From: Ghiorsea bivora
GTDB lineage: Bacteria > Pseudomonadota > Zetaproteobacteria > Mariprofundales > Mariprofundaceae
Direction: 5' to 3'
Assembly (NCBI RefSeq): GCF_000744415.1
Contig: NZ_JQLW01000010.1
Span: 1-64,000 of the forward strand
Length of the DNA stretch: 64,000 nt
Positions 41,681-54,408 of this stretch are shown one piece after another. The stretch's first letter is position 1; each line of letters begins with the position of its first letter. The notes under the pieces were generated by a model. That model was not told the origin of the DNA. It saw only the letters and a list, made by a program, of their open reading frames with translations, and made no database searches. Both the position numbers and the translations under genes were made by a program.

Positions 41681-42571
41681 ATGTCATTTTTTAGTCGTCT
41701 TAGCAAAGGGTTGAGCAAAACCCGTGAAAGTATTGGTGGTTTATTCCCCAGTGAAACCAAAGAAAAAATAAGTGATAGCCAATGGCAAGACATTGAAGAT
41801 GCCTTAATTATGGCAGATTGTGGCGCACAATTAGCCATGGACTTGGTTAGAAAAGCAAAGAAATCAAAGCAACCCATGCAAACCTTAAAAGACAATATGC
41901 AAGCCACCTTGGTGACAGGCAGTGAAATCAAAGAAGCAAAACCTTTTGTGCTTTTGGTTGCAGGCGTGAATGGCACGGGCAAAACCACCACGATTGGTAA
42001 ACTTGCCAATATGTATGCCGACCAAGGTAAAAAAGTATTGATTGGCGCAGCAGACACCTTTCGTGCTGCAGCCGTTGAACAATTAGCTGTATGGGTGGAA
42101 CGCGCTGGCGCAGATATTGTTAAACAAGCAGAAGGTGCGGATCCTGCATCGGTTGCTTTTGATACTATCTCACGTGGCATAGCCAAAAATTATGATGTGA
42201 TTATTATTGATACTGCAGGTCGTGTACAAACCGATACCAGCCTGATGAATGAGTTGGCCAAAGTATACCGCGTGATTGGCAAAGCCCTAGATGGTGCACC
42301 GCATGAAGTTTGGCATGTGGTTGATGGTGGTACAGGGCAAAATGCAATTGTACAGGTCGAAAAATTCCGTGAAATCATTCATACCACAGGTTTGATTGTG
42401 ACCAAGCTTGATGGCACTGGCAAAGGTGGTGTGGTATTGCAACTATGTGATAAGTTTAAGTTACCCGTGCGTTATATTGGGGTGGGTGAAAGTTTGGAAG
42501 ACTTGATGCCTTTTCATGCAGGAGCATATATCGATAGTTTACTGCCTGAAACAACACAAACCTCAACATAA
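41681..42571 (+). CDS. ftsY: Signal recognition particle receptor FtsY
   Basis: The 296-residue GTPase docks SRP-ribosome complexes at the membrane. The NG domain has the P-loop GVNGTGKTTTIGKLA, DTFRAAAVEQL, DTAGR and TKLDGTGKGG. The acidic A domain of E. coli FtsY is absent, as in many bacteria; the N-terminus is a short amphipathic helix (MSFFSRLSKGLSKTRES). I use the ATG at 41681 behind GAGGGTG; the frame is open to 41630. Its 3' end overlaps that of cheR by 9 bp, convergently. Confidence 0.95.
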   Translation: MSFFSRLSKGLSKTRESIGGLFPSETKEKISDSQWQDIEDALIMADCGAQLAMDLVRKAKKSKQPMQTLKDNMQATLVTGSEIKEAKPFVLLVAGVNGTGKTTTIGKLANMYADQGKKVLIGAADTFRAAAVEQLAVWVERAGADIVKQAEGADPASVAFDTISRGIAKNYDVIIIDTAGRVQTDTSLMNELAKVYRVIGKALDGAPHEVWHVVDGGTGQNAIVQVEKFREIIHTTGLIVTKLDGTGKGGVVLQLCDKFKLPVRYIGVGESLEDLMPFHAGAYIDSLLPETTQTST

Positions 42572-43387
42572 ACGCCAAATTCTTTGCCGTTGAACATCAA
42601 CCCGTTGCCACTTGGATATATTTCCTTCAGGTAAGTCTGCGGCACCTGTAATGAGGTAACCACCTTTACGCATCGTTCTGGCTATGCGGTCAATCACGCG
42701 TTTGCGCTCTTCAATACTAAAATAAATCAACACATTACGCAAAAACACAACATCAAATAAACCAAACCGGTGCATTTGTGTCACCAGTGTATCTAACACC
42801 AAATTTCCCTCATAAAAGCTTGCCATTGCTCTTAAATCATCATTCACCACCCACGATGGCCCCATTGGACGAAAAAATTTATTTAACCTTGGCATGGAAA
42901 CACCACGCTTTACTTCAATATCTGAATAAGTCCCTTGCTTGGCAAACGCAACCGATTCCGCAGATAAATCTGTGCCTACAATTTGTACACGCTGCCTAGC
43001 ATTGGGCATAACCTCGCAGGCTGTCATAGCAATAGAATATGCCTCCTGACCTCTGGATGCAGCAGCTGACCATATATTTATAGGTGAACTCATACCTTTA
43101 CCTTGGTTTATTTCAGGAAAAATATGTTCTTGTAATGCAACAAAAGGGTAACCATCCCGAAAAAACAATGTTTCATTGGTAGTCATCAAATCAATCGCTT
43201 CAGCAGCAAGTGCCGAGTTTTCTTGCTGCTTTATCTTAAGAATAAGTGCATTCAAATCATCTGCGTTATATTTTGTCAAAATCGGCTGAAGTCTTGATTT
43301 GACCAAATATGCTTTTTCCTTGGTAATTACGATACCACTTTTCCTTTCTAGAAACTCTCTAAACCATGTAAATTTATGCTCTTTCAC
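42563..43387 (-). CDS. cheR: Chemotaxis protein methyltransferase CheR
   Basis: The 274-residue enzyme transfers methyl groups from SAM to glutamates of chemoreceptors. An N-terminal helical CheR_N region is followed by the Rossmann domain, with NIWSAAASRGQEAYSIAM, VGTDLS and VFLRNVLIYFS. The start is GTG at 43387 behind GGAGC. It is last in the seven-gene chemotaxis operon and, with CheB, provides adaptation. Its 3' end overlaps ftsY. Confidence 0.93.
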   Translation of the reverse strand: MKEHKFTWFREFLERKSGIVITKEKAYLVKSRLQPILTKYNADDLNALILKIKQQENSALAAEAIDLMTTNETLFFRDGYPFVALQEHIFPEINQGKGMSSPINIWSAAASRGQEAYSIAMTACEVMPNARQRVQIVGTDLSAESVAFAKQGTYSDIEVKRGVSMPRLNKFFRPMGPSWVVNDDLRAMASFYEGNLVLDTLVTQMHRFGLFDVVFLRNVLIYFSIEERKRVIDRIARTMRKGGYLITGAADLPEGNISKWQRVDVQRQRIWRLC

Positions 43388-43413
43388 GTTTCTAGCTCCA
43401 TATAATACTCAGC

Positions 43414-44487
43414 TTAGGCCACATGCCTGAGCATAGCTTTAGCTATATCAGCTAAAGGTAAGACTTCATTAGCAGCACCATTGCGAAAGGTTTCACCTGC
43501 CATACCCCACACCACACTGCTTTCCTCATTTTGGACAAGCACATGATTTCCTTGTTCTGACAGTAACTTGGCGCCTTTAGCACCATCGTTACCCATGCCC
43601 GTCAAAACCACAGCCAAGGTTTTTACTGCTGGCGATAACGCAACCAAAGATTCGTAAGTTACATCTACCGACGGAATGGCATGGTTTACCCGTACCCCCG
43701 CCTCTAACTGTGCAACCAAAGCTGAACCACGTTGCATAATTTTCATATGCACATCACCTGGTGCCATATATACATGCCCAGCTTGAAGCACCTCACCTTG
43801 CCCTGCCACACGACAAACCAGCGGACTGCTTTGATTCAAACGTGTCGCAAGTGATGTAATAAATGCTTTGGGCATATGCTGAGTTACCACAACCGGCACT
43901 GAAAAATTTTCAGGAAGCTGACTTAACACCTCTTGCAAAGCAGCAGGTCCTCCTGTGCTTGAACCAATGGCAACCACATCTGCCTTAAATACACCACGCG
44001 TTACCTTATGACTTGTTTTTAAAGGAGAGGCGGCTGCGTTTACTGCTGTTGGAGTAACTTTTACAGGCACATGCACACGTTTAAATACCGATTTTAAGCT
44101 TCGCGCTTGCTGAATTTCAGGTAACAATTTATCTTGCAAGTAAGTTTTTTTATCGACAACATTGGTATCAGGTTTAAGAATAAAATCAAATGCACCCAAC
44201 TCCATAGCTTTTAAGGTTTTCTCTGCATCTGTTTCCGTGCTACAAGCCACAACAATCACTTTAATATGTGGGTACTTTTCTCGCATTTGATACAAAATTT
44301 CTATGCCGTCCATATCTGGCATCTTCATGCTTAAGGTAATTAAATCTGGTTGCAAGTGCGCAATCATATCCAATGCTTTTTTTCCATTATTGGCAACACC
44401 AATAATTTCCGTATCGGGTAAGTCGGATAAACATGTGCGTAATAACAAACGAAATGGAGCGGAACTATCAACTATAAGGATTTTCAT
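43414..44487 (-). CDS. cheB: Chemotaxis response regulator methylesterase CheB
   Basis: The 357-residue protein has an N-terminal receiver (MKILIVDSSAPFRLLLRTCL; phospho-acceptor region DLITLSMKMPDMDG, where the usual aspartate appears as a serine-methionine variant, see findings). The C-terminal esterase has serine in AIGSSTGGPAAL, histidine in VVTQHMPKAF and aspartate in GMGNDGAKG. I use the ATG at 44487, giving MKILIVDS; the frame stays open into cheW. It removes methyl groups from receptors and balances CheR. Confidence 0.9.
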   Translation of the reverse strand: MKILIVDSSAPFRLLLRTCLSDLPDTEIIGVANNGKKALDMIAHLQPDLITLSMKMPDMDGIEILYQMREKYPHIKVIVVACSTETDAEKTLKAMELGAFDFILKPDTNVVDKKTYLQDKLLPEIQQARSLKSVFKRVHVPVKVTPTAVNAAASPLKTSHKVTRGVFKADVVAIGSSTGGPAALQEVLSQLPENFSVPVVVTQHMPKAFITSLATRLNQSSPLVCRVAGQGEVLQAGHVYMAPGDVHMKIMQRGSALVAQLEAGVRVNHAIPSVDVTYESLVALSPAVKTLAVVLTGMGNDGAKGAKLLSEQGNHVLVQNEESSVVWGMAGETFRNGAANEVLPLADIAKAMLRHVA

Positions 44488-44494
44488 ATGCTGT

Positions 44495-45019
44495 CTAATG
44501 CATAGTGATTTCTTTGGTATTGGGTGCCGATGCATTGGGAATGGTCAATGCAACAAATCTATCCACATTCACCAGTAACAACACTCTATCCTCTTGTTTT
44601 AACACCCCATCACTCACTTGCCGCCACACTTCGTTTAAAGAACTCGGTGTTGCCTCAAACAAATCTTCATCCAACACAATCACTTCGCCAACATCATCCA
44701 CAATCAGACCAAAGTCTTCACCACTCATGGTTTCAATAATAACCACGTGAAAAGGCTCATCTTCTCCTCTATCTGGCTCACCAATCACACGGCGCACTTC
44801 AAGCTCTGTAATCACCCTTCCCCGCAAGTTAATCAAACCCGCGACTGCATAGGGTGCCATAGGCATAGTGGTTCGCTTTTGTTGTTTTACCACCTCCCGC
44901 ACCTGTTGTACGCGAAAACCAATCCATTGATCAGCGATGCGACACGTCAAAAGCTCAACAGGTTTATTGTCTTTCATCACCGTGACGGATGACGTTTCAT
45001 GAACCAATACATTTGACAT
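44495..45019 (-). CDS. cheW: Chemotaxis coupling protein CheW
   Basis: The 174-residue SH3-like adaptor links receptors to CheA. Family segments include CRIADQWIGFRVQQVREVV, GLINLRGRVITELEVRR and DFGLIVDDVGEVIVLDED. The tail is slightly longer than usual. It starts 10 bp after the cheA stop and its stop is 7 bp before the cheB start. Confidence 0.92.
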   Translation of the reverse strand: MSNVLVHETSSVTVMKDNKPVELLTCRIADQWIGFRVQQVREVVKQQKRTTMPMAPYAVAGLINLRGRVITELEVRRVIGEPDRGEDEPFHVVIIETMSGEDFGLIVDDVGEVIVLDEDLFEATPSSLNEVWRQVSDGVLKQEDRVLLLVNVDRFVALTIPNASAPNTKEITMH

Positions 45020-45028
45020 ATTTACCCC

Positions 45029-47632
45029 TTAACTCACAGTGATAGCTGGCTGTACATCTTTCGTTTGTGCTTCAAGCACATCGTATACCGACAAAGCCTG
45101 CTTTAATTCTTTAGCCAATTGCGTGCTATCTTTTTTCGAAAGCACTTGGTCAAACAACGTTTTGGCTTGTTGCTCATCAATACTTTGCTGTGCTGTTAAC
45201 GCAACCACTGGCACATCAGACAAGTGCGCTTGCATTTTTACCCATTTACCCAACTCATATCCATTCATAATCGGCATTTCAATATCGGTTAAAATAAAGT
45301 CTGGTGTGTAATCTTCCAAGAGTTTACAAGCTTGGGTACCATCCGCTGCCGTACGCACCACAAAACCCAAGGATTCAATAATAGGTGTAACCATTTGCCG
45401 GAAGAACTGTGAATCCTCAACAAACAATACCGACTTCTTGGCTTGGTCATGCGTGGGAACAAACCAGTTTGGATCTGCTCTTTGCACCACTTCAAAAACA
45501 TCAACCACTTCGGTTGCAATGCCTTCAATCACAGTTGTACCTAATAAAAGCGGTGTATCTGAAATTTGCTTAATTTCAAAACTTACTTCTAAAATATCCA
45601 CCACTTGATCAACCTGCAAACACATACGTTTTCCATTGTCAGCTAAGATAAGGCAATACTCATCTTCACCCGTAGATACGGCAGGTTTTTTCCCTAACAT
45701 TTCACCCCAACGCAGCACTCGAACCACATCACCACGGTATTGTAAGACCTCACCCGAAGCCGTTTTTTCAATGCGTGATGCTTCAAAATACTCCAAACGC
45801 TCAATTAAAGTCATTGGAATCACAAAACGCTGCTCACCTTGGGTAAATACCAATGCATGTTGCCGTTCTTCTGCCAGCCCATCATCATGCTCACCCATAT
45901 AATCAATCGCTTCGGCAGGCGCGCTTTCAAGTTGAATCATGGATGCCAAACCATTGCAATCAAAAATTGGAATCACCGTACCGTCACCCAAAATACTACA
46001 GCCACCATAAAAATTCAGATGTTGAAAATGAATACCCAACGGTTTGACCACAATTTCTTCGGCACCAAGAATTTCATCCACCAAAATCCCATACGTTCTA
46101 TCACCAATATCAGCCACGACGATAGAGCCTGATAAAGTTGTATCACTGGCATCAGATAAACCCAAAGCTTCATTTAAACGTAACACGGGTAAAAGTTTCC
46201 CACGTAAACGATAAAAAACTTGCCCTGCAATCACCCGCCAATCATCTGAATCTTTGGGTGCGCTTAATAACTCTTGCACACTCATCTGAGGAATTGCAAA
46301 CCGTTTATCTTCACAAACCACAATCATGGCTGAAATAATTGCCAAGGTAAGCGGAATACGAATCCGAAGTGTAGTGCCTTTACCAAGCTCACTATCAATA
46401 TCTACGCTTCCACCAACGCGCTCAATTTCAGTGCGTACCACATCCATACCCACGCCTCGCCCTGAAAAATTAGTCACCTTCTCTGCGGTGGAAAGACCTG
46501 CATTAAAAATAAGCTGTAAAGCAGCTTTGTCAGTCATATTGGCTGCTTGCTCTGCATTGATCACACCCATATGCATCGCTTTGTCCTTGATGCGTTGTGC
46601 ATCAATGCCACCGCCATCATCATGAATCGTAATCACAATAAACCCTGATTCTTGTACCGCTGAAAGCTTAAGTATACCCGTTGCTTGTTTTTCAGCCGCT
46701 AACCTAACCTTGGGCGATTCAATACCATGGTCACAGCTATTACGGATAATATGAGTGAGTGGGTCTTTAAGCGCATTTAATATGGTTCTATCCAGCTCGG
46801 TATCTTCACCTTCCATCACCACTTTAATTTTTTTATCTAACTGCTTACCAATATCACGAACAATACGTGGCACACTGCTCCAAATAGTTTGAATGGGCTG
46901 CATCCGTGTACGCAATAACTGCTCTTGTAACTGCTCAGTAATTTGATCCACATCACGACCAATACGCACAAATTCCATAGAGCCAGAGGCTTGAATCATC
47001 TGCACCAGACTATTCCGAGTTAACACCAGCTCACCAACTTGGTTCATCAACTCGTCTAGCAATTCAATATCCACACGAATACTTTCATGGCTTACAGGTC
47101 GTTTTTGTTTGGTTTTACTCACACCTTTTTCTTGCGATGTCGTTTGCACGGCTTTGCTTTCTAGTGTTTTGTTTTGTACTGCGGGAGGCGTTGCCACAGT
47201 TTCCGTAGACTCTTGCGTACTGCTTTGCACCGTTTCATTACTTTTTTTGGTTTCCAATTTTGGCGCTTTCGTTGGCTTTTCTTTGCTTCCACTTTCAGTG
47301 TGTACGGACACACTTACTTCTACATCCTCACCCGATTCCACACGCGCCCTAGCCATACCCAAGATTTTCAAGGCATCCGCAGGCGTCAAAGGCTCAAGGT
47401 TACGTAAAGTTGCAAAACCAGCCTCAATCAAACTCGAAGCCGTCGTCAGGTTGTTGGCAATCATGGCTGCAATCACCGCATCTTCAAAACCTTGCAACCA
47501 TGTCAAAGGCTCAGCTTTATTGTCTTGTTCTTGCGCAACCTGAACATTTTCAGCTTCCATTGGTGCTTGCCCATGATCATCGCCTCCCTGTTGACCTTCC
47601 CCCCGCTGACCTCCCCCCCTCTTGACCTTCAT
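45029..47632 (-). CDS. cheA: Hybrid CheA histidine kinase, main part (P3-P5, second CheW-like domain, receiver), separated from its P1 by a frameshift
   Basis: The 867-codon frame begins inside the G-rich linker and has no credible start. In order it has a helical hairpin domain (about 42-100), P3 dimerisation helices (about 185-240, LLDELMNQVGELVLTRN), the ATPase (HIIRNSCDHGIES, GRGVGMDVV), a CheW-like P5 (435-570), a second CheW-like domain (590-730), and a receiver (745-860, VLFVEDSQFFR, phospho-acceptor ILTDIEMPIMNG). The kinase needs the P1 histidine encoded by the upstream frame. The two frames overlap by 56 bp and would be one 1,000-residue protein if a single G were removed from the run of seven at 47613-47619. 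Confidence 0.85.
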   Translation of the reverse strand: MKVKRGGGQRGEGQQGGDDHGQAPMEAENVQVAQEQDNKAEPLTWLQGFEDAVIAAMIANNLTTASSLIEAGFATLRNLEPLTPADALKILGMARARVESGEDVEVSVSVHTESGSKEKPTKAPKLETKKSNETVQSSTQESTETVATPPAVQNKTLESKAVQTTSQEKGVSKTKQKRPVSHESIRVDIELLDELMNQVGELVLTRNSLVQMIQASGSMEFVRIGRDVDQITEQLQEQLLRTRMQPIQTIWSSVPRIVRDIGKQLDKKIKVVMEGEDTELDRTILNALKDPLTHIIRNSCDHGIESPKVRLAAEKQATGILKLSAVQESGFIVITIHDDGGGIDAQRIKDKAMHMGVINAEQAANMTDKAALQLIFNAGLSTAEKVTNFSGRGVGMDVVRTEIERVGGSVDIDSELGKGTTLRIRIPLTLAIISAMIVVCEDKRFAIPQMSVQELLSAPKDSDDWRVIAGQVFYRLRGKLLPVLRLNEALGLSDASDTTLSGSIVVADIGDRTYGILVDEILGAEEIVVKPLGIHFQHLNFYGGCSILGDGTVIPIFDCNGLASMIQLESAPAEAIDYMGEHDDGLAEERQHALVFTQGEQRFVIPMTLIERLEYFEASRIEKTASGEVLQYRGDVVRVLRWGEMLGKKPAVSTGEDEYCLILADNGKRMCLQVDQVVDILEVSFEIKQISDTPLLLGTTVIEGIATEVVDVFEVVQRADPNWFVPTHDQAKKSVLFVEDSQFFRQMVTPIIESLGFVVRTAADGTQACKLLEDYTPDFILTDIEMPIMNGYELGKWVKMQAHLSDVPVVALTAQQSIDEQQAKTLFDQVLSKKDSTQLAKELKQALSVYDVLEAQTKDVQPAITVS

Positions 47633-48029
47633 CCAAACCCATCACCTTTTTCTCACATGCTTGTAAACGCTCAATCAAGTCATCATGATCTAAAACGGGT
47701 TCTTGCCCTGTTTCTTCTAAACCTGTGAGCACATCCTTAATTGCATCTGCGCACTCCAAAAGTAAGGATACAATATCTTCATCCACATGATACTTAAGCT
47801 CTCGAATACGGCTTAATAGATTCTCACCTGCATGGGCTACTTTTTCCAACCTGCTTAAGTTGAGAAAACCACAGCTACCTTTCACCGTATGAATGGCACG
47901 AAAGATAGAGTCCAAAAGCTCTGAATCATCAGGGGAAGCTTCCAAATCCATGAGCTGCTGCTCAATGGATTCTAGGCTTTCATTGCTTTCTGTTAAAAAT
48001 TCACCTAAGAGTTCTTCATCCATGTCCAT
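47577..48029 (-). CDS. cheA: CheA P1 (Hpt) domain, 5' part of the split cheA
   Basis: The 150-residue frame holds the CheA histidine phosphotransfer domain with the phospho-acceptor H47 in IFRAIHTVKGSCGFL. Residues 1-130 are the helical bundle. The last 20 (EGGRSAGGRSTGRR) come from reading the wrong frame after the G7 run. In the alternative frame the same DNA reads GGGQRGEGQQGGDDHGQ and joins the rest of CheA. As read, it makes an isolated Hpt protein that could be phosphorylated in trans by the separate kinase part. Confidence 0.8.
   Translation of the reverse strand: MDMDEELLGEFLTESNESLESIEQQLMDLEASPDDSELLDSIFRAIHTVKGSCGFLNLSRLEKVAHAGENLLSRIRELKYHVDEDIVSLLLECADAIKDVLTGLEETGQEPVLDHDDLIERLQACEKKVMGLDEGQEGGRSAGGRSTGRR
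47613..47619 (-). repeat. Run of seven G (minus strand) at the cheA frame break
   Basis: The minus strand reads CAAGAGGGGGGGAGGTCA. A second, six-base run lies at 47599-47604. Six instead of seven G would fuse the two cheA frames without any stop. Runs of this kind mutate by slippage and are a usual basis of phase variation, and also a frequent place for sequencing errors. Confidence 0.75.
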
Positions 48030-48065: not shown

Positions 48066-48440
48066 TTAAAAAAGCATGCCACCGACTGTTTCAATTAAAG
48101 CTTCAGGCTGAAAAGGTTTAACCAACCATGCTGAAATACCTGAGTTGTGCCCAATAGCTTTTTTATCTTCGCCAGATTCCGTCGTTAACATCACGATTGG
48201 TGTGTGTGCATAAGCCTCTGTTTCTCTCAACTTTTGAATCATGGTTAACCCATCCATATTGGGCATGTTTAAATCGGTTAGAATCAAATCAAAAGGTGTT
48301 TCAGCTTGTATTGCTTTATCCAAACCTTCTTGTCCATCTTTGGCTTCTTCCACACCAAAATCAACAGACATCAGTGTTCGTTTCACTGTAATTCTTACCA
48401 TTGCCGAGTCTTCAACAATTAAAATCCGTGGACCACTCAT
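48066..48440 (-). CDS. cheY: Chemotaxis response regulator CheY
   Basis: The 124-residue single receiver domain has the acidic pair in ILIVEDSAMVR, phospho-acceptor D in LILTDLNMPNMDG, the threonine in IVMLTTESGE and lysine in WLVKPFQPE. When phosphorylated it would bind the flagellar switch or, in this operon, another output. Its ATG overlaps the stop of the channel gene upstream (ATGA), so the two proteins are made in coupled fashion. Confidence 0.93.
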   Translation of the reverse strand: MSGPRILIVEDSAMVRITVKRTLMSVDFGVEEAKDGQEGLDKAIQAETPFDLILTDLNMPNMDGLTMIQKLRETEAYAHTPIVMLTTESGEDKKAIGHNSGISAWLVKPFQPEALIETVGGMLF

Positions 48441-51400
48441 AACTCACCTCTCAATACAATTCGCTCTTCTTCCATCACATAACGTTTGGCAACTTCTTCT
48501 TCCCAAGCTGCTTTTTCTGTAGCTTCAGGCTGTGCATCTGCCCATTCACTCAAACATGATTTCACATTGTTCAGACGTTGGTTTACCCGATCGATATTTT
48601 GTAAATCGGTCAGTGCTTCCATCAGCTTGGCTTCCACTTCAGGAGCTACACCCATTTCCAAAATATCCATGAGTTTTACCAAACCCTCTTCACTGCTTGT
48701 TGCCAATAGCTCCACTGAGCCTTGCACTTGTTTTTCCAATACCCGCAACAAACGTTTATCTACCTGCTTAGGCCAAATTGATTCACGCATCACTTCTCCT
48801 TCAACAGCCATATCAACCACTGCAACGGATTGTATGTCTTGGTTTTCTTCTTTAATCACTTCATCACTTGGAGCCGCTTCACACGTTTCTTCTTCTCTTA
48901 CTACTTCCTCTTGGGCTTCAACTGGTGTGTTGGTAGCAACAACCGTTTCTTCTGTGTTGAGCGTTAATGTTTGCTCAGCTTCGTTTTCGTCATTATTCAA
49001 CACACCACGACGACAAAATAAAAATGAAGCCGTTTGATAGGGCGCATCCATTTCCATCACAGGTGAGCCCGCCAACAACTGCATATTACCCACATGCCCT
49101 GAATGCAAAGGAAACACATGATCCAAAGCATGAAACAAACTTTTTGCATCTGTATCCTTATCATGTTTCAAATATGCCATCAGCATCCAACCACGGCGCA
49201 GTGCTTCCCGATAAACCGACTCCCAACTGGGTTGTTTCCCACCCTCAAGCAAGTGTATCGCTTCTACATCTTCCACCAACACAGCATCACCAAGCATATT
49301 GTCCATAAAGTCATAAGCATACTTATCTTCAACAGCTTCCTCAGGGTATTGCATCTTTCTTGCTTGTGTAAGCAATTGCCTTGCCATAAACACATCATGG
49401 AACGCATCAGGCGAGCCAACCCGCACATCCAAAAGTGGGTAGCGCTGACCAGCATTAACCAAACTTTCAATATTTTCTGCCATACGCGGCAAGACCATCA
49501 GTTTGGGTGGTGTCCACCATTTCACTTGTTCTTTGCGTGCAGAGAGCATGGATGCCACTTCATGCAACCAAAGCTCCAACATCGAATCCTCATTACCCTC
49601 TTCCCCACTTTCAGGGTAAAACATGATAACTTTACAACCGCGAAGTTGTTTGCTTAATACTTCGGTATCCAAACCATCCCATGCATGAACCGACACATTT
49701 AAGGTGCATGATATGTTTTCTTTCACATGTTCTTCAACACTTCGCAAAGCACGCATTTGTGCTGTTAACAATGTTTCATCATGGGTACTAAAAACATGGC
49801 ATGTTAGCTTATGATGTCGCTCTGCCATCTCTTCAATCATGGCTGGCAAACCAGGGTGCCAACCCAAAAACATCATGGATAAATCCCAAGTTTCTGGCCA
49901 AGTAAAGGTTTGCAATTGATTTTCATGAGGCATAAGCCCTAAATCAAAGCTTTGCTCTAAAATACCCGACCATAAAATTCTATCTCTGCCCAAAGCAATG
50001 ATGCCTTCAAAAGCTTCATCTTTTTTGTGTTTGACCAAATCACTGAACAAAATAAATATTCCATCATGTCGCCGTGCTGCCAACACATTCAGCCCCAAAC
50101 CAAAACAATTGGTTAACCAAGGTTCGAGCAACAGTTGTTCATTTTCAAATTTAATTGCAGCACCCGCACTGCTGGTTACAATCTCAAACTGCCACGACAT
50201 GCTGTATAAACCTGTTTCCCCCGACACCACATCAAACATATGAATACCCAACTCTGGCATATGGCTGCAATGATGCATTTGATACAACATACGGGCGCGA
50301 ATCGAAGATGAGTCCACCACATGCATTGCCAATGAATGTTCATAAACTTGGGATAAACTTAAGGGTAACCGACTGTCTGTAACCACCAACCCATCGGTAT
50401 CCAACTCACGTGCCAAATGGTGAATATCCGCAACCTTGGCTGTATCTGGCTCATGCTGTTTCTGCATGAATACAATAAATTGAGTAATACCTGTAAGTTT
50501 AAAATGTTCAATCAAAGCGCGACTTCCCGTTTGCACCTCGCGCACACTTAACCAACTACCCACTTGTGCCGCACCATCCACCACTTTATCATGAAAAATC
50601 CACACTGAAGGAAAAGAATAACGCAACCTTGCCGCCAGTTGTCCAAGCTTGTGTAAAATGGGCATAGCCTGTTCATTGTATCCCATAAACAATAAGTGTT
50701 CACGCGCTGAAAGTGGGCTATTGGCAAGCTCGTCTAACATATATTTCATCACATTCGAGCCAAGGCTGACCACCAAAGCAAAGAAAAACACACCTGAAAG
50801 CACCAAAACAACTGTCAAACCCGTTAACCAAGGTGTAAATGCCACCGTGGGTGCAGCGCCAGGGTCTATCATCAAACGAAAGACAAATAACAACACCTGA
50901 AACGGCGCATAATCCCCAGCATTCACATCACCATCGTCATTAATATCAATATGCGGATAAAAATACCAAATGGCAATAAAACCTATAATCATGAATGCCA
51001 TAAACATGGCTGCCAACATGCTGCCTTCACGGCGAATTTCAGGTCTAGCCACTACTTTTTTCACGGCAAGCCAAATATTACCCAAGGGATTGAGCATAAT
51101 AAGGAAACGAACGAGGCGTAACAAAACCCAAGTGCTACTTAATTCAGGTACAATACCCATCAAAGCAATAGCAGCAAACATATCAGGGGCGATAAAAAAG
51201 ACTTCCCACCGTCTGCGTTTTCCAGCGGATAAAACGCGGTATAAAGAATACCAGCGATAACTGGTTTCAATCAACAAAATCATGCCAATATACAAACCAA
51301 TACTAGACACCGCCCAAGCAAGAGCTGCAAGCCCCACCATCACCAAAGAAAATGGCAATGAAAACACCAAAGTATCAAAGGTTAAAAAGCGGAAAATACG

Positions 51401-52036
51401 CAACATCCGTAACATATACATGCCACGGAATAGCCTTGCGATACGCAAATAAATGCCCTGCTCCAACAAACCTGCTGGCATCAACAACGAGGCATACATA
51501 CTGATAGTCGCTAAGCCATCAAAAAAGAGAAAAAACAGCTCCATTTTGTTGCGATAGCCACTTTCCTTTTGCAGCCAAAAGCGAAGCACCCACTCCACTG
51601 TAAAAAAGATCGCCAGCGGTGCCATAACAAACCAATAGCGCTCAAACACGCATAAACCCAAAGCAATCATGACAATAACAGCATAACGGGGATGCGAAAA
51701 GACACGTTCGCCCAATAATAACCATTCACGTTTGGAATGAGGACCCGATAAACGCGCCATCCACTCTGATGACCACGATGAACTGCGATGGTTTAAGTTG
51801 GAACTTTCAACATCATTTTTTGTAACAGACGATGTTTCAACACTAACTTGATTTCGTGAACCTTCATTCACTACTGCATTCACATCAGCTATAACCTGCT
51901 CAGCTTTGGCTTGTTGAACATCTTCAGCTTCAAATTTTATTGTTTTCTCAGCCACCTGAATACTCTTACAACTTGCCATCGATAACGTAGGTTTCACCAC
52001 TGTATTTAACAGTGCCGTAACTGGTGGTGTTGTCAA
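48437..52036 (-). CDS. CASTOR/POLLUX-like voltage-sensor channel with RCK-like part and CheZ-like C-terminal tail
   Basis: The 1199-residue protein has a polar N-terminus (1-100) and membrane helices from about 113. An S4-like helix has arginine at every third position (R198, R201, R204, R210, R213, R216). A second set of helices precedes the pore. An EF-hand loop (D364-D375) precedes the pore helix (FRLMIDPGAAP). The final membrane helix leads into an RCK-like part (LLFMGYNEQAMPILHKLG) of about 550 residues. A disordered acidic linker and a helical tail (about 1081-1199) follow. The tail has LQNIDRVNQRL, in which D1149 and Q1153 match the D-x-x-x-Q of CheZ. It lies between the MCP gene and cheY. 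Channel similarity is to plant CASTOR/POLLUX-type proteins. Confidence 0.65.
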   Translation of the reverse strand: MTTPPVTALLNTVVKPTLSMASCKSIQVAEKTIKFEAEDVQQAKAEQVIADVNAVVNEGSRNQVSVETSSVTKNDVESSNLNHRSSSWSSEWMARLSGPHSKREWLLLGERVFSHPRYAVIVMIALGLCVFERYWFVMAPLAIFFTVEWVLRFWLQKESGYRNKMELFFLFFDGLATISMYASLLMPAGLLEQGIYLRIARLFRGMYMLRMLRIFRFLTFDTLVFSLPFSLVMVGLAALAWAVSSIGLYIGMILLIETSYRWYSLYRVLSAGKRRRWEVFFIAPDMFAAIALMGIVPELSSTWVLLRLVRFLIMLNPLGNIWLAVKKVVARPEIRREGSMLAAMFMAFMIIGFIAIWYFYPHIDINDDGDVNAGDYAPFQVLLFVFRLMIDPGAAPTVAFTPWLTGLTVVLVLSGVFFFALVVSLGSNVMKYMLDELANSPLSAREHLLFMGYNEQAMPILHKLGQLAARLRYSFPSVWIFHDKVVDGAAQVGSWLSVREVQTGSRALIEHFKLTGITQFIVFMQKQHEPDTAKVADIHHLARELDTDGLVVTDSRLPLSLSQVYEHSLAMHVVDSSSIRARMLYQMHHCSHMPELGIHMFDVVSGETGLYSMSWQFEIVTSSAGAAIKFENEQLLLEPWLTNCFGLGLNVLAARRHDGIFILFSDLVKHKKDEAFEGIIALGRDRILWSGILEQSFDLGLMPHENQLQTFTWPETWDLSMMFLGWHPGLPAMIEEMAERHHKLTCHVFSTHDETLLTAQMRALRSVEEHVKENISCTLNVSVHAWDGLDTEVLSKQLRGCKVIMFYPESGEEGNEDSMLELWLHEVASMLSARKEQVKWWTPPKLMVLPRMAENIESLVNAGQRYPLLDVRVGSPDAFHDVFMARQLLTQARKMQYPEEAVEDKYAYDFMDNMLGDAVLVEDVEAIHLLEGGKQPSWESVYREALRRGWMLMAYLKHDKDTDAKSLFHALDHVFPLHSGHVGNMQLLAGSPVMEMDAPYQTASFLFCRRGVLNNDENEAEQTLTLNTEETVVATNTPVEAQEEVVREEETCEAAPSDEVIKEENQDIQSVAVVDMAVEGEVMRESIWPKQVDKRLLRVLEKQVQGSVELLATSSEEGLVKLMDILEMGVAPEVEAKLMEALTDLQNIDRVNQRLNNVKSCLSEWADAQPEATEKAAWEEEVAKRYVMEEERIVLRGEL
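50912..50947 (-). other. EF-hand-like calcium-binding loop in the channel protein
   Basis: These 36 bases encode DINDDGDVNAGD (residues 364-375). Positions 1, 3, 5, 7, 9 and 12 are D, N, D, D, N and D with glycine at position 6, a canonical EF-hand/dockerin loop. It lies between the helix SMLAAMFMAFMIIGFIAIW and the pore helix, so it should face the periplasm. Confidence 0.7.
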
Positions 52037-52083: not shown

Positions 52084-54333
52084 CTAACGGTTGCGCAAGC
52101 TGGCTAAAAAATCAGTCACACGAGCCGATAAAGACTCTCCTTTTTGTCGAATTAATGACGATACACTTTTTACTTCACTGGCTGATCTACCCGTATCTTC
52201 AGCTGCTTGTCGCACATCCGAAATGGCAGTCGTCACCCGCACTGTTGCATCGGATGCATGGTGAACACTCTGTGCAATATCTTGTGTTGCTCTGCTCTGC
52301 TCACTGGCTGCCATAGCGATAGCTTCATTGATAGTATTCATTTTTTGAATGGTTTGACCAATCTTTTCAATTGCCGTTGCCGCCCCTTGGCTTTCCTGTT
52401 GAATCGCTGTTATTTGCAAGGAAATCTGTTCAGTTGCTTTGGCAGTTTGATTTGCAAGTTCTTTCACTTCTCCTGCCACTACAGCAAAACCACGCCCTGC
52501 ATCACCTGCTCTAGCAGCTTCAATGCTTGCATTAAGTGCAAGTAAATTGGTTTGTTCTGCAATATCTGTAATTACACCCACAACTTCACCAATTTCTTGC
52601 GATGCTACAGATAGTTTAGCGACGGTTTTATTGGTCGTTTCTGCTTCAGACACAGCTTGTGACGACATATCCACAGCACCTTGTACCTGCTGTGTGATTT
52701 CAGAAATCGAAGAGGAAAGCTCCTCTGTTGCTGATGCCACATTGGCAACATTATGATTCGCCTCTTCAGCACCAGCAGACACACTGGTTGCTTGCCCTAA
52801 AGATTGCTCAGCCATCGCTGAAAGCGTTTCGGATGATGATTGCATTTGTGTTGCTGCAGCGATTAATTCATCCACTGTTGCCCCAATATTAGTCTCAAAA
52901 TCTTTGGCCAGTTGCACAGCATGGGTTACATCATTCCAAGATACCAAAATAGATACCCAGTCACCATCAATATTCTTAATCGTATGTGCACTAAATTCAA
53001 TGGTTCGATCAGCAATTTCAAACGATGCAGACATCGGAAATGACTGTTCATTTTTGAGAACTTGACGCTGATGTGATGGTTTTTCATGAAAGATATCGAT
53101 GTTTTTACCTACCAATTCTGAAGCAGCACATGGCAATGCACCTTCAATACCCTGAAACAATGCAAGCGCCGCTGGGTTCATATAACTAATCACCAATGAA
53201 TCCTTATCCGCAAGCATCATGGCTTGTGGTGAAGACTCCACAACTTGCTTTAACATATTGCTTTCCACAGATTGTTTTTGGAACTTTCTCAGTGAATCTA
53301 ACAGCTCACTTATTGCTCCCTTCATTGGATATGATACCTCGCGAATTTCTCCCCGCTCCAATACATCCATAGCTTCTGCAACCTTATTTAACGGTGTTGT
53401 AATGGTTTTACCAATCCTAACAATTAAAAGAGTAATCAATACAATAGCAATGGTTAAGATTCCCCAAAACTGATACTTTTGAGATGTTTGTCGAGCAGCC
53501 TGCTCTTCATATAATTTATCAAGATAAGATTGGAACCCTTGGTCTAATAACTTTATTTCCGCACTAAGCTCAGTTTGGTAAATTTTCTCCAGTTCTGTTT
53601 CAACTTGAATCAAACTTAAAAGTTTTTCAGCATAACTTTCAAATGACTTTTCGTATTCCCCCATATCTCTTTCTATATTATGTTTCACTTGCATGCTTAA
53701 GTTTGATTGTCGTAGCAGGGTCTTAAATCTTTGTACTTCTTTGTGAAACTTGTCCACATATTTGGGTTGCTGGCGCAGCATAAAGTCTTTTTCATGCCGT
53801 CTTAACATGAGCATAGAAACCATAAGATTATTTTTGTTGTATTTTTTCAGGTTTGCCTCAACATTATGTACAGCTTTCCGCAACTGACCGGTAAGCCCAT
53901 CATTTTTATTCAAACCTAATTTTTCACGCTCAACCGCAGCTTGCTCAAAAATACTATCAAACTTCTGCATAGCTTGCTGTAAATTGACCGTCTCTTGATT
54001 TAACGCAGTGGTCGGAAGACCATGAACCAATGTTTGAATATCCTTATCATTATCTGCTGAATACGCTAGCCATGCTTCTTTCCCTTGTTTATCTTTATAT
54101 TTTAAATACCGAGCAGCTGATTCAAATTCAACAAAAACATTTCCCAACAACCTACCTAGTACACCTTGTAGATGCATGGCATCGGTTACTCTAACCGTGA
54201 CCTCACGCACTTGATTACTTGAACTATTGTGAACTGCACCCGCCACCAACATACCAATAACAGCAACTGTACCAATCAAACGTAAACGTCCGACAATTGT
54301 AAGTTCTGCAAACCATGTTTTGATATTAACCAT
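52084..54333 (-). CDS. Methyl-accepting chemotaxis protein with PAS domain
   Basis: I start at the ATG 54333, eight bases after GGAG; the frame is open to 54348 at a GTG. The 749-residue receptor has a membrane helix ([15 protein letters not shown]), a helical periplasmic domain of about 270 residues, and a second helix ([17 protein letters not shown]). A HAMP-like region ([17 protein letters not shown]) and a PAS domain (about 380-490, [14 protein letters not shown]) follow. The signalling hairpin tip has [20 protein letters not shown]. It is first in the chemotaxis operon and presumably its dedicated receptor. The gene to its left starts 48 bp away. Confidence 0.92.
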
Positions 54334-54408
54334 TCTCAACTCCAACACTGAGCTTATTTTTCTAAAAGTTTTACAATTTAAAGCAAAAGCAATGCCATTT
54401 CTTTTGCT

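Follow-up and report, generated by a model that had tools for sequence, protein, structure and literature searches.

The last 119 residues of a 1199-residue channel-like protein, encoded in a chemotaxis operon of the window (the whole stretch of 64,000 nucleotides that was analysed, on contig C10 of a genome of 2.15 Mb), are probably a miniature CheZ-type auxiliary phosphatase of phosphorylated CheY (CheY-P), tethered to a voltage-sensor/RCK channel-like protein. We favour this reading because of the invariant Q-x-x-D-x-x-x-Q signature of the tail, a chain of profile matches that leads to CheZ, the coupling to cheY, and the exchange with CheX between related operons. Residues 1081-1199 are a real and conserved domain, and a module in their own right.

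The gene of the fusion protein lies on the reverse strand at 48437-52036, as do the other features of the window described here, with TTG, the first in-frame start, as the putative start codon. The ORF proved to be real, and a check of ORF and codons placed D1149 and Q1153 where the preliminary description had put them. Full-length relatives with 39-89% identity were found in many Zetaproteobacteria. The protein comprises a channel-like membrane part (residues ~105-435, 50732-51724), a cytoplasmic part (residues ~440-1010, 49007-50719), a linker (residues 1011-1080, 48797-49006), and the CheZ-like helical-hairpin domain, the interval of which includes the stop codon (residues 1081-1199, 48437-48796). 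The cytoplasmic part probably consists of RCK-type gating-ring domains, as judged from matches of paralogues to Slo-like_RCK and DMI1. The linker is variable and mostly acidic, with low conservation, and is rich in repeats in the relatives.

The operon runs in the order MCP, channel-like protein, cheY, cheA, cheW, cheB and cheR. The upstream gene encodes a methyl-accepting chemotaxis protein (52084-54348; MCPsignal, E 3e-32), and cheY follows the tail at 48066-48440 (Response_reg, E 6e-25). The overlap of the tail gene with cheY, as previously described, was confirmed: the two genes share the four bases ATGA, and the same overlap was present in 37 of the 39 relatives with a placeable cheY, including the free-standing tail copies of genomes G039 and G040. 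The genes cheW (44495-45019), cheB (43414-44535) and cheR (42563-43387), which together span 42563-45019, were named from their ORF translations alone. The cheA gene (45029-48029) is split into two ORFs, an Hpt part (47577-48029) and the remainder with a C-terminal receiver (45029-47632), by a frameshift at a run of seven G within 47560-47640 (GAGGGGGGGAGG). In a close relative (L241), the CheA of which is 89% identical, cheA is one intact ORF of 981 residues. The split is either an assembly error or a phase-variable tract.

Our best guess for the membrane part, from hydropathy segments, invariant alignment columns and weak profile matches to Kv1.3, KvAP and MthK, is a channel. The Pfam search of the protein itself returned nothing. 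Paralogues in the same genome matched Slo-like_RCK with E 2e-4, which narrowly misses the cut-off, and one of them matched DMI1 at E 0.04. With a nine-sequence profile, the best match was the Kv1.3 voltage sensor (columns 119-207) at a weak E of 0.012; KvAP (283-424, E 0.1) and MthK (376-514, E 0.74) were also weak, and the three stand in a coherent order. To speak of a channel, as the preliminary description did, is plausible, but the resemblance to Kv sensors and to the MthK pore/RCK is weak. The arginines R201-R204-R210-R213 and R307-R310 are invariant and suggest two S4-like elements, and the invariant D391-P392-G393 in the pore-like region suggests an unusual filter region. S4-like arginine repeats, one pore-like region and an RCK-like cytoplasmic part are features that the protein appears to have in common with the CASTOR/POLLUX/DMI1 channels, the Slo/MthK-type RCK channels and the Kv sensors. 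The similarity to them is weak, however, and the protein differs from them in that there are apparently two voltage-sensor-like units ahead of the one pore. The loop DINDDGDVNAGD just before the pore resembles an EF-hand/dockerin calcium loop. We know of no phosphatase-like tail of this kind in CASTOR/POLLUX/DMI1, Slo/MthK or Kv channels, and to our knowledge a CheZ-like domain fused to a channel-like protein is new.

The tail had been described as helical, and the last 119 residues are indeed predicted to be almost all-helical. AlphaFold2 with an alignment of 38 sequences, however, gave a helical hairpin rather than one helix (mean pLDDT 88.6; pLDDT 69 when modelled without the alignment). 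In tail numbering the helices span residues 14-47 and 52-88, followed by short C-terminal helices at 99-105 and 109-118. Helix 1 of the hairpin corresponds to residues 1094-1127 (48656-48757) and helix 2, which bears the putative active-site stripe, to residues 1132-1168 (48533-48643). The signature Q1146-x-x-D1149-x-x-x-Q1153 (QNIDRVNQ) is encoded at 48578-48601, with the codons CAA AAT ATC GAT CGG GTA AAC CAA read from 48601 to 48578. D1149 and Q1153 are D69 and Q73 of the tail, in the middle of helix 2 of the model. Q66, D69, Q73 and N77 lie on one face of this helix (mean vector length 0.87), and the stripe points away from the mean hydrophobic direction, a direction that is itself weakly defined. 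Searches with the tail model in Foldseek and VIA-align returned generic hairpins alone (ESAT-6-like proteins and designed bundles, Z under 9), and CheZ was absent from the returned lists. Since the two-helix hairpin is a common fold, such matches are unspecific and speak neither for nor against CheZ.

The bare D-x-x-x-Q motif was rejected as evidence, because 22.6% of shuffled tails contain one. It is through conservation, as judged from the alignments, that the signature is beyond chance. D and Q are among the 22 columns that are invariant in 19 of 19 representative tails of the window's order. The four nearest relatives, all Ghiorsea MAGs (Zetaproteobacteria), are 76-97% identical over the tail; in the alignment of 38 sequences, with relatives at about 20% identity and the most distant at 16%, Q1146, D1149 and Q1153 are the sole invariant residues.

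The tail profile reaches beyond the Zetaproteobacteria, to L114 (E 3.4e-6) and L117 (E 0.0098). Both are C-termini of chemoreceptor-like proteins, their signature reads QFQDRVSQ, and their genes immediately precede cheY. In the reverse search, a profile of these two found the Zetaproteobacterial tails at E 2.5e-5 to 1e-3. When 299 sampled genomes of the phylum were searched with a joint profile, 132 gave matches, and 44 of these belong to the window's order. Twenty remote places were chosen from this match list by HMM score and fetched, and the three signature columns read Q, D and Q in every one. HH comparison of the tails with the wider family gave 96.5% (E 8.9e-10). Since the profiles match in both directions with the signature in register, the tail is, on sequence grounds, a member of a broader, apparently unnamed family in Pseudomonadota. 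The module had no Pfam or NCBIfam name in the members searched, and where it is fused to a receptor it is annotated just as 'methyl-accepting chemotaxis protein'. A literature search that covered few subscription papers found no description of a Q-x-x-D-x-x-x-Q family and no relevant report on CheZ with a channel or chemoreceptor.

The remote members occur as free-standing proteins of 148-191 residues, as receptor C-termini and as proteins of 330-345 residues. Stand-alone CheZ-like members are L208, L209, L210, L213 and L207; receptor C-termini are L114, L117, L151 and L217. For several of the genes, a single-domain cheY follows at a distance of 23-72 bp. FQD occurs in many members, and several of the proteins end in a CheY-binding-like peptide, for example VTQSEMDAGSIELF, to be compared with VSQDDIDALF of CheZ. 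The family (L114, L117, L157, L208 and others) has the Q-x-x-D-x-x-x-Q signature and the adjacency to cheY in common with the tail, and L114, L117 and L157 also share with it a Y-x-M-x-x-x-R-like block after the signature. In contrast to the window's tail, the family ends in an acidic peptide of the D/E-I-D/E-L-F type or in D-I-T-F-F, and its members are not fused to a channel. A second Zetaproteobacterial type (L219, L220, L221 and L222), about 330-360 residues long, has QFED[IV]xxQ or a similar motif and ends in a sequence like NPVSQQSMDKGEVELF; it was not found in the window's genome.

The catalytic residues of E. coli CheZ are D143 and Q147. CheZ carries an AXXFQ motif just ahead of D-x-x-x-Q (PMC7750401), and in the D/Q mechanism the acidic and amide pair coordinates the attacking water (PMC3510030). 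The lack of a CheZ profile match for residues 1081-1199 had been set beforehand as part of the refuting test, and no such match was obtained: the Pfam and NCBIfam profiles did not match the tail, the genome-wide CheZ search gave nothing at this locus, and direct HH comparison of the tails with CheZ gave a non-significant 0.3-0.4%. AXXFQ is absent from the tail, which reads TDLQNIDRVNQ at this position, and so is the C-terminal CheY-binding peptide, the tail ending in MEEERIVLRGEL. Since it lacks a direct profile match, AXXFQ and the C-terminal peptide, the tail is not filed as CheZ.

The wider family, however, bridges the tail and CheZ. In HH comparison it matched alpha-CheZ at 70% (E 4e-5) and gamma/beta-CheZ at 68% (E 4.8e-5), and both alignments place FQD-x-x-x-Q on FQD-x-x-x-Q, D over D and Q over Q. 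The score was 37, whereas none of 200 column permutations (100 per target) exceeded 16.4, control alignments with MCP, Hpt and the CheA dimerisation domain reached at most 25, and reversal gave 11-19. When the eight motif columns were masked, the score fell to 20, and the similarity therefore rests largely on the active-site helix. As an independent indication, a search of 8041 ORFs with the family HMM retrieved an alpha-CheZ that Pfam recognises (E 1.1e-5), and the alignment pairs D with D and Q with Q. The NCBIfam CheZ model touched two family members weakly at the motif helix (E 0.008 and 0.016). Two versions of a merged alignment of family and tails gave 4.6% and 30-65% against CheZ; the CheZ link thus depends on the sampling of the family. 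Among PDB sequences, the tail and family profiles did not return CheZ; on a stretch reading LQ-x-x-D-x-x-x-Q they matched subunit 10 of the human Mediator (E 0.01-0.03). Since this match is chance-like, short helical matches at such E values were taken as noise. Homology of the tail and its family to CheZ is likely on these sequence comparisons, and a possible alternative is that the same active-site helix arose by convergence.

CheZ (PF04344; E. coli, alpha-proteobacterial) resembles the tail in the helical hairpin, in D-x-x-x-Q on the second helix and in having cheY as the partner gene. Unlike CheZ, whose hairpin covers residues 35-168 in E. coli (PMC7750401), the tail has a much shorter hairpin of about 75 residues and is part of a membrane protein. 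Judged by sequence and context, the tail would work like CheZ.

Within the window's order, the tail profile found the domain in 43 genomes, most of which have it as a fusion to the channel-like protein. Free-standing copies were found in four genomes. In G038, G039 and G040 a separate tail gene for 117-152 residues lies ahead of cheY, and in G022 a flagellar cluster closes with an MCP and, after it, a gene for 161 residues. The fusion protein of G039 (L017, an ORF of 1674 residues) has three copies of the tail in tandem, in all of which W replaces the R after the putative catalytic Q (Q-W, not Q-R), and a separate normal copy stands after it, before cheY. Some tails at the start of a contig (L025, L033 and others) looked free-standing but were judged to be truncated fusions and set aside, and first-look matches in G097, G156, G122 and G382 were excluded because they are unrelated. 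In G008 the join of tail and channel lies in a run of N. A plasmid search with a stand-alone relative gave no match.

The absence of a separate cheZ from the operon, noted earlier, was confirmed, and searches of the window's genome and of 74 genomes of the family yielded no CheZ above the Pfam cut-off. CheC was not found in the window's genome either. There is, however, one remote CheC/CheX-like ORF outside the operon (204 residues, L227:1315-1926; G000:C6 near 42.6 kb), which has an E-x-x-N motif (ITEVGNILMN), lies beside a PAS histidine kinase and scores below the CheX cut-off. It is possibly a second receiver phosphatase of this genome.

CheA of the window's type is encoded in 20 of 38 compared genomes. 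The tail is present in 19 of these 20 and in none of the 18 others, and in the sole exception (G005) the contig ends just before cheA. Fisher's test gave p of about 1e-9, a value that ignores relatedness and operon linkage, and linkage by itself would yield much of the co-occurrence. Two complete Mariprofundaceae genomes (G023 and G075) have a different CheA, no tail, and a cheX gene beside cheR (L270 and L273). The CheX of G023 matches PF13690 at E 1.5e-21, and that of G075 is a close counterpart with the same ELTN (E-x-x-N) motif. The presence of CheX in operons without the tail fits the expectation if the tail occupies the phosphatase slot. The proposal of a CheY phosphatase module in the preliminary description thus fares unevenly: a direct CheZ match is lacking, while the bridging family, the free-standing forms, the translational coupling to cheY and the slot filled by CheX in related operons all point indirectly towards it.

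According to the proposed mechanism, the two long antiparallel helices would form a hairpin, which may dimerise into a four-helix bundle. By analogy with D143 and Q147 of E. coli CheZ, the role of D1149 would be to touch the active site of CheY, and that of Q1153 to position the water for hydrolysis. The substrate would be the CheY-P of the CheY encoded by the next gene; catalysis, this substrate and the dimer are what we infer. The flexible linker would tether the phosphatase to the membrane channel-like protein, so that CheY-P would be destroyed at the membrane. Speculatively, the channel state may set the rate of this destruction; otherwise the channel may serve merely as a membrane tether. 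A bolder version, which we regard as doubtful, is that gating of the voltage-sensor/RCK channel directly sets the CheY-P lifetime via the fused mini-CheZ. Membrane potential or an RCK ligand would then steer swimming while bypassing CheA, and the domain would belong to an unrecognised, widespread class of CheY phosphatases, with many members at chemoreceptor C-termini.

It is worth noting that there are other interpretations. In the main rival, the tail is a receptor for CheY-P and not an enzyme: docked CheY-P would gate the channel, and the signal would pass from chemotaxis to ion flow. CheZ-like surfaces bind CheY-P, and the fusion and the coupling to cheY suit either direction. However, D and Q never vary and are spaced like a catalytic pair, free-standing copies occur without a channel, and CheX is found in operons where the tail is missing. 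These points argue against it, and we consider this interpretation unlikely. It is still less probable that the tail is a non-catalytic coiled coil or oligomerisation element, which gathers channels together or anchors them to receptor arrays and in which D and Q are structural. Helical hairpins are commonplace and relatives are found at chemoreceptor C-termini, but the invariant residues form a polar stripe and not a hydrophobic core, and the wider family resembles CheZ in a matched register. Slightly less probable again is dephosphorylation of another receiver, alone or besides CheY, such as the C-terminal receiver that the CheA of this operon bears, since the conserved neighbour and overlap partner is a single-domain cheY and many wider-family members lie upstream of such a gene.

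Three other assignments of the tail were rejected. CheX, CheC and FliY have the same proposed role, and CheX sits in the che operon of relatives without the tail; CheX and CheC, however, carry E-x-x-N in an alpha/beta fold, whereas the tail is modelled as all-helical with D-x-x-x-Q, and no CheX or CheC profile matched it. HisKA_3 sensor kinases such as NarX likewise have a DxxxQ phosphatase motif on a helix (PMC3510030), but residues 1081-1199 contain no histidine, beside the motif or elsewhere, and the protein has no kinase or ATPase domain. An Hpt phosphotransfer domain was rejected because the tail lacks histidine.

If the tail is a phosphatase, as we think probable, the chemotaxis signal of these iron oxidisers ends at a membrane channel and not at a soluble enzyme, and motor control would be linked in a concrete way to membrane voltage or ions. 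The Q-x-x-D-x-x-x-Q module could also explain how CheY-P is switched off in che operons of Pseudomonadota that have no recognisable CheZ, CheC or CheX. In marine iron-oxidising bacteria, an ion channel and the swimming signal may be directly wired together.
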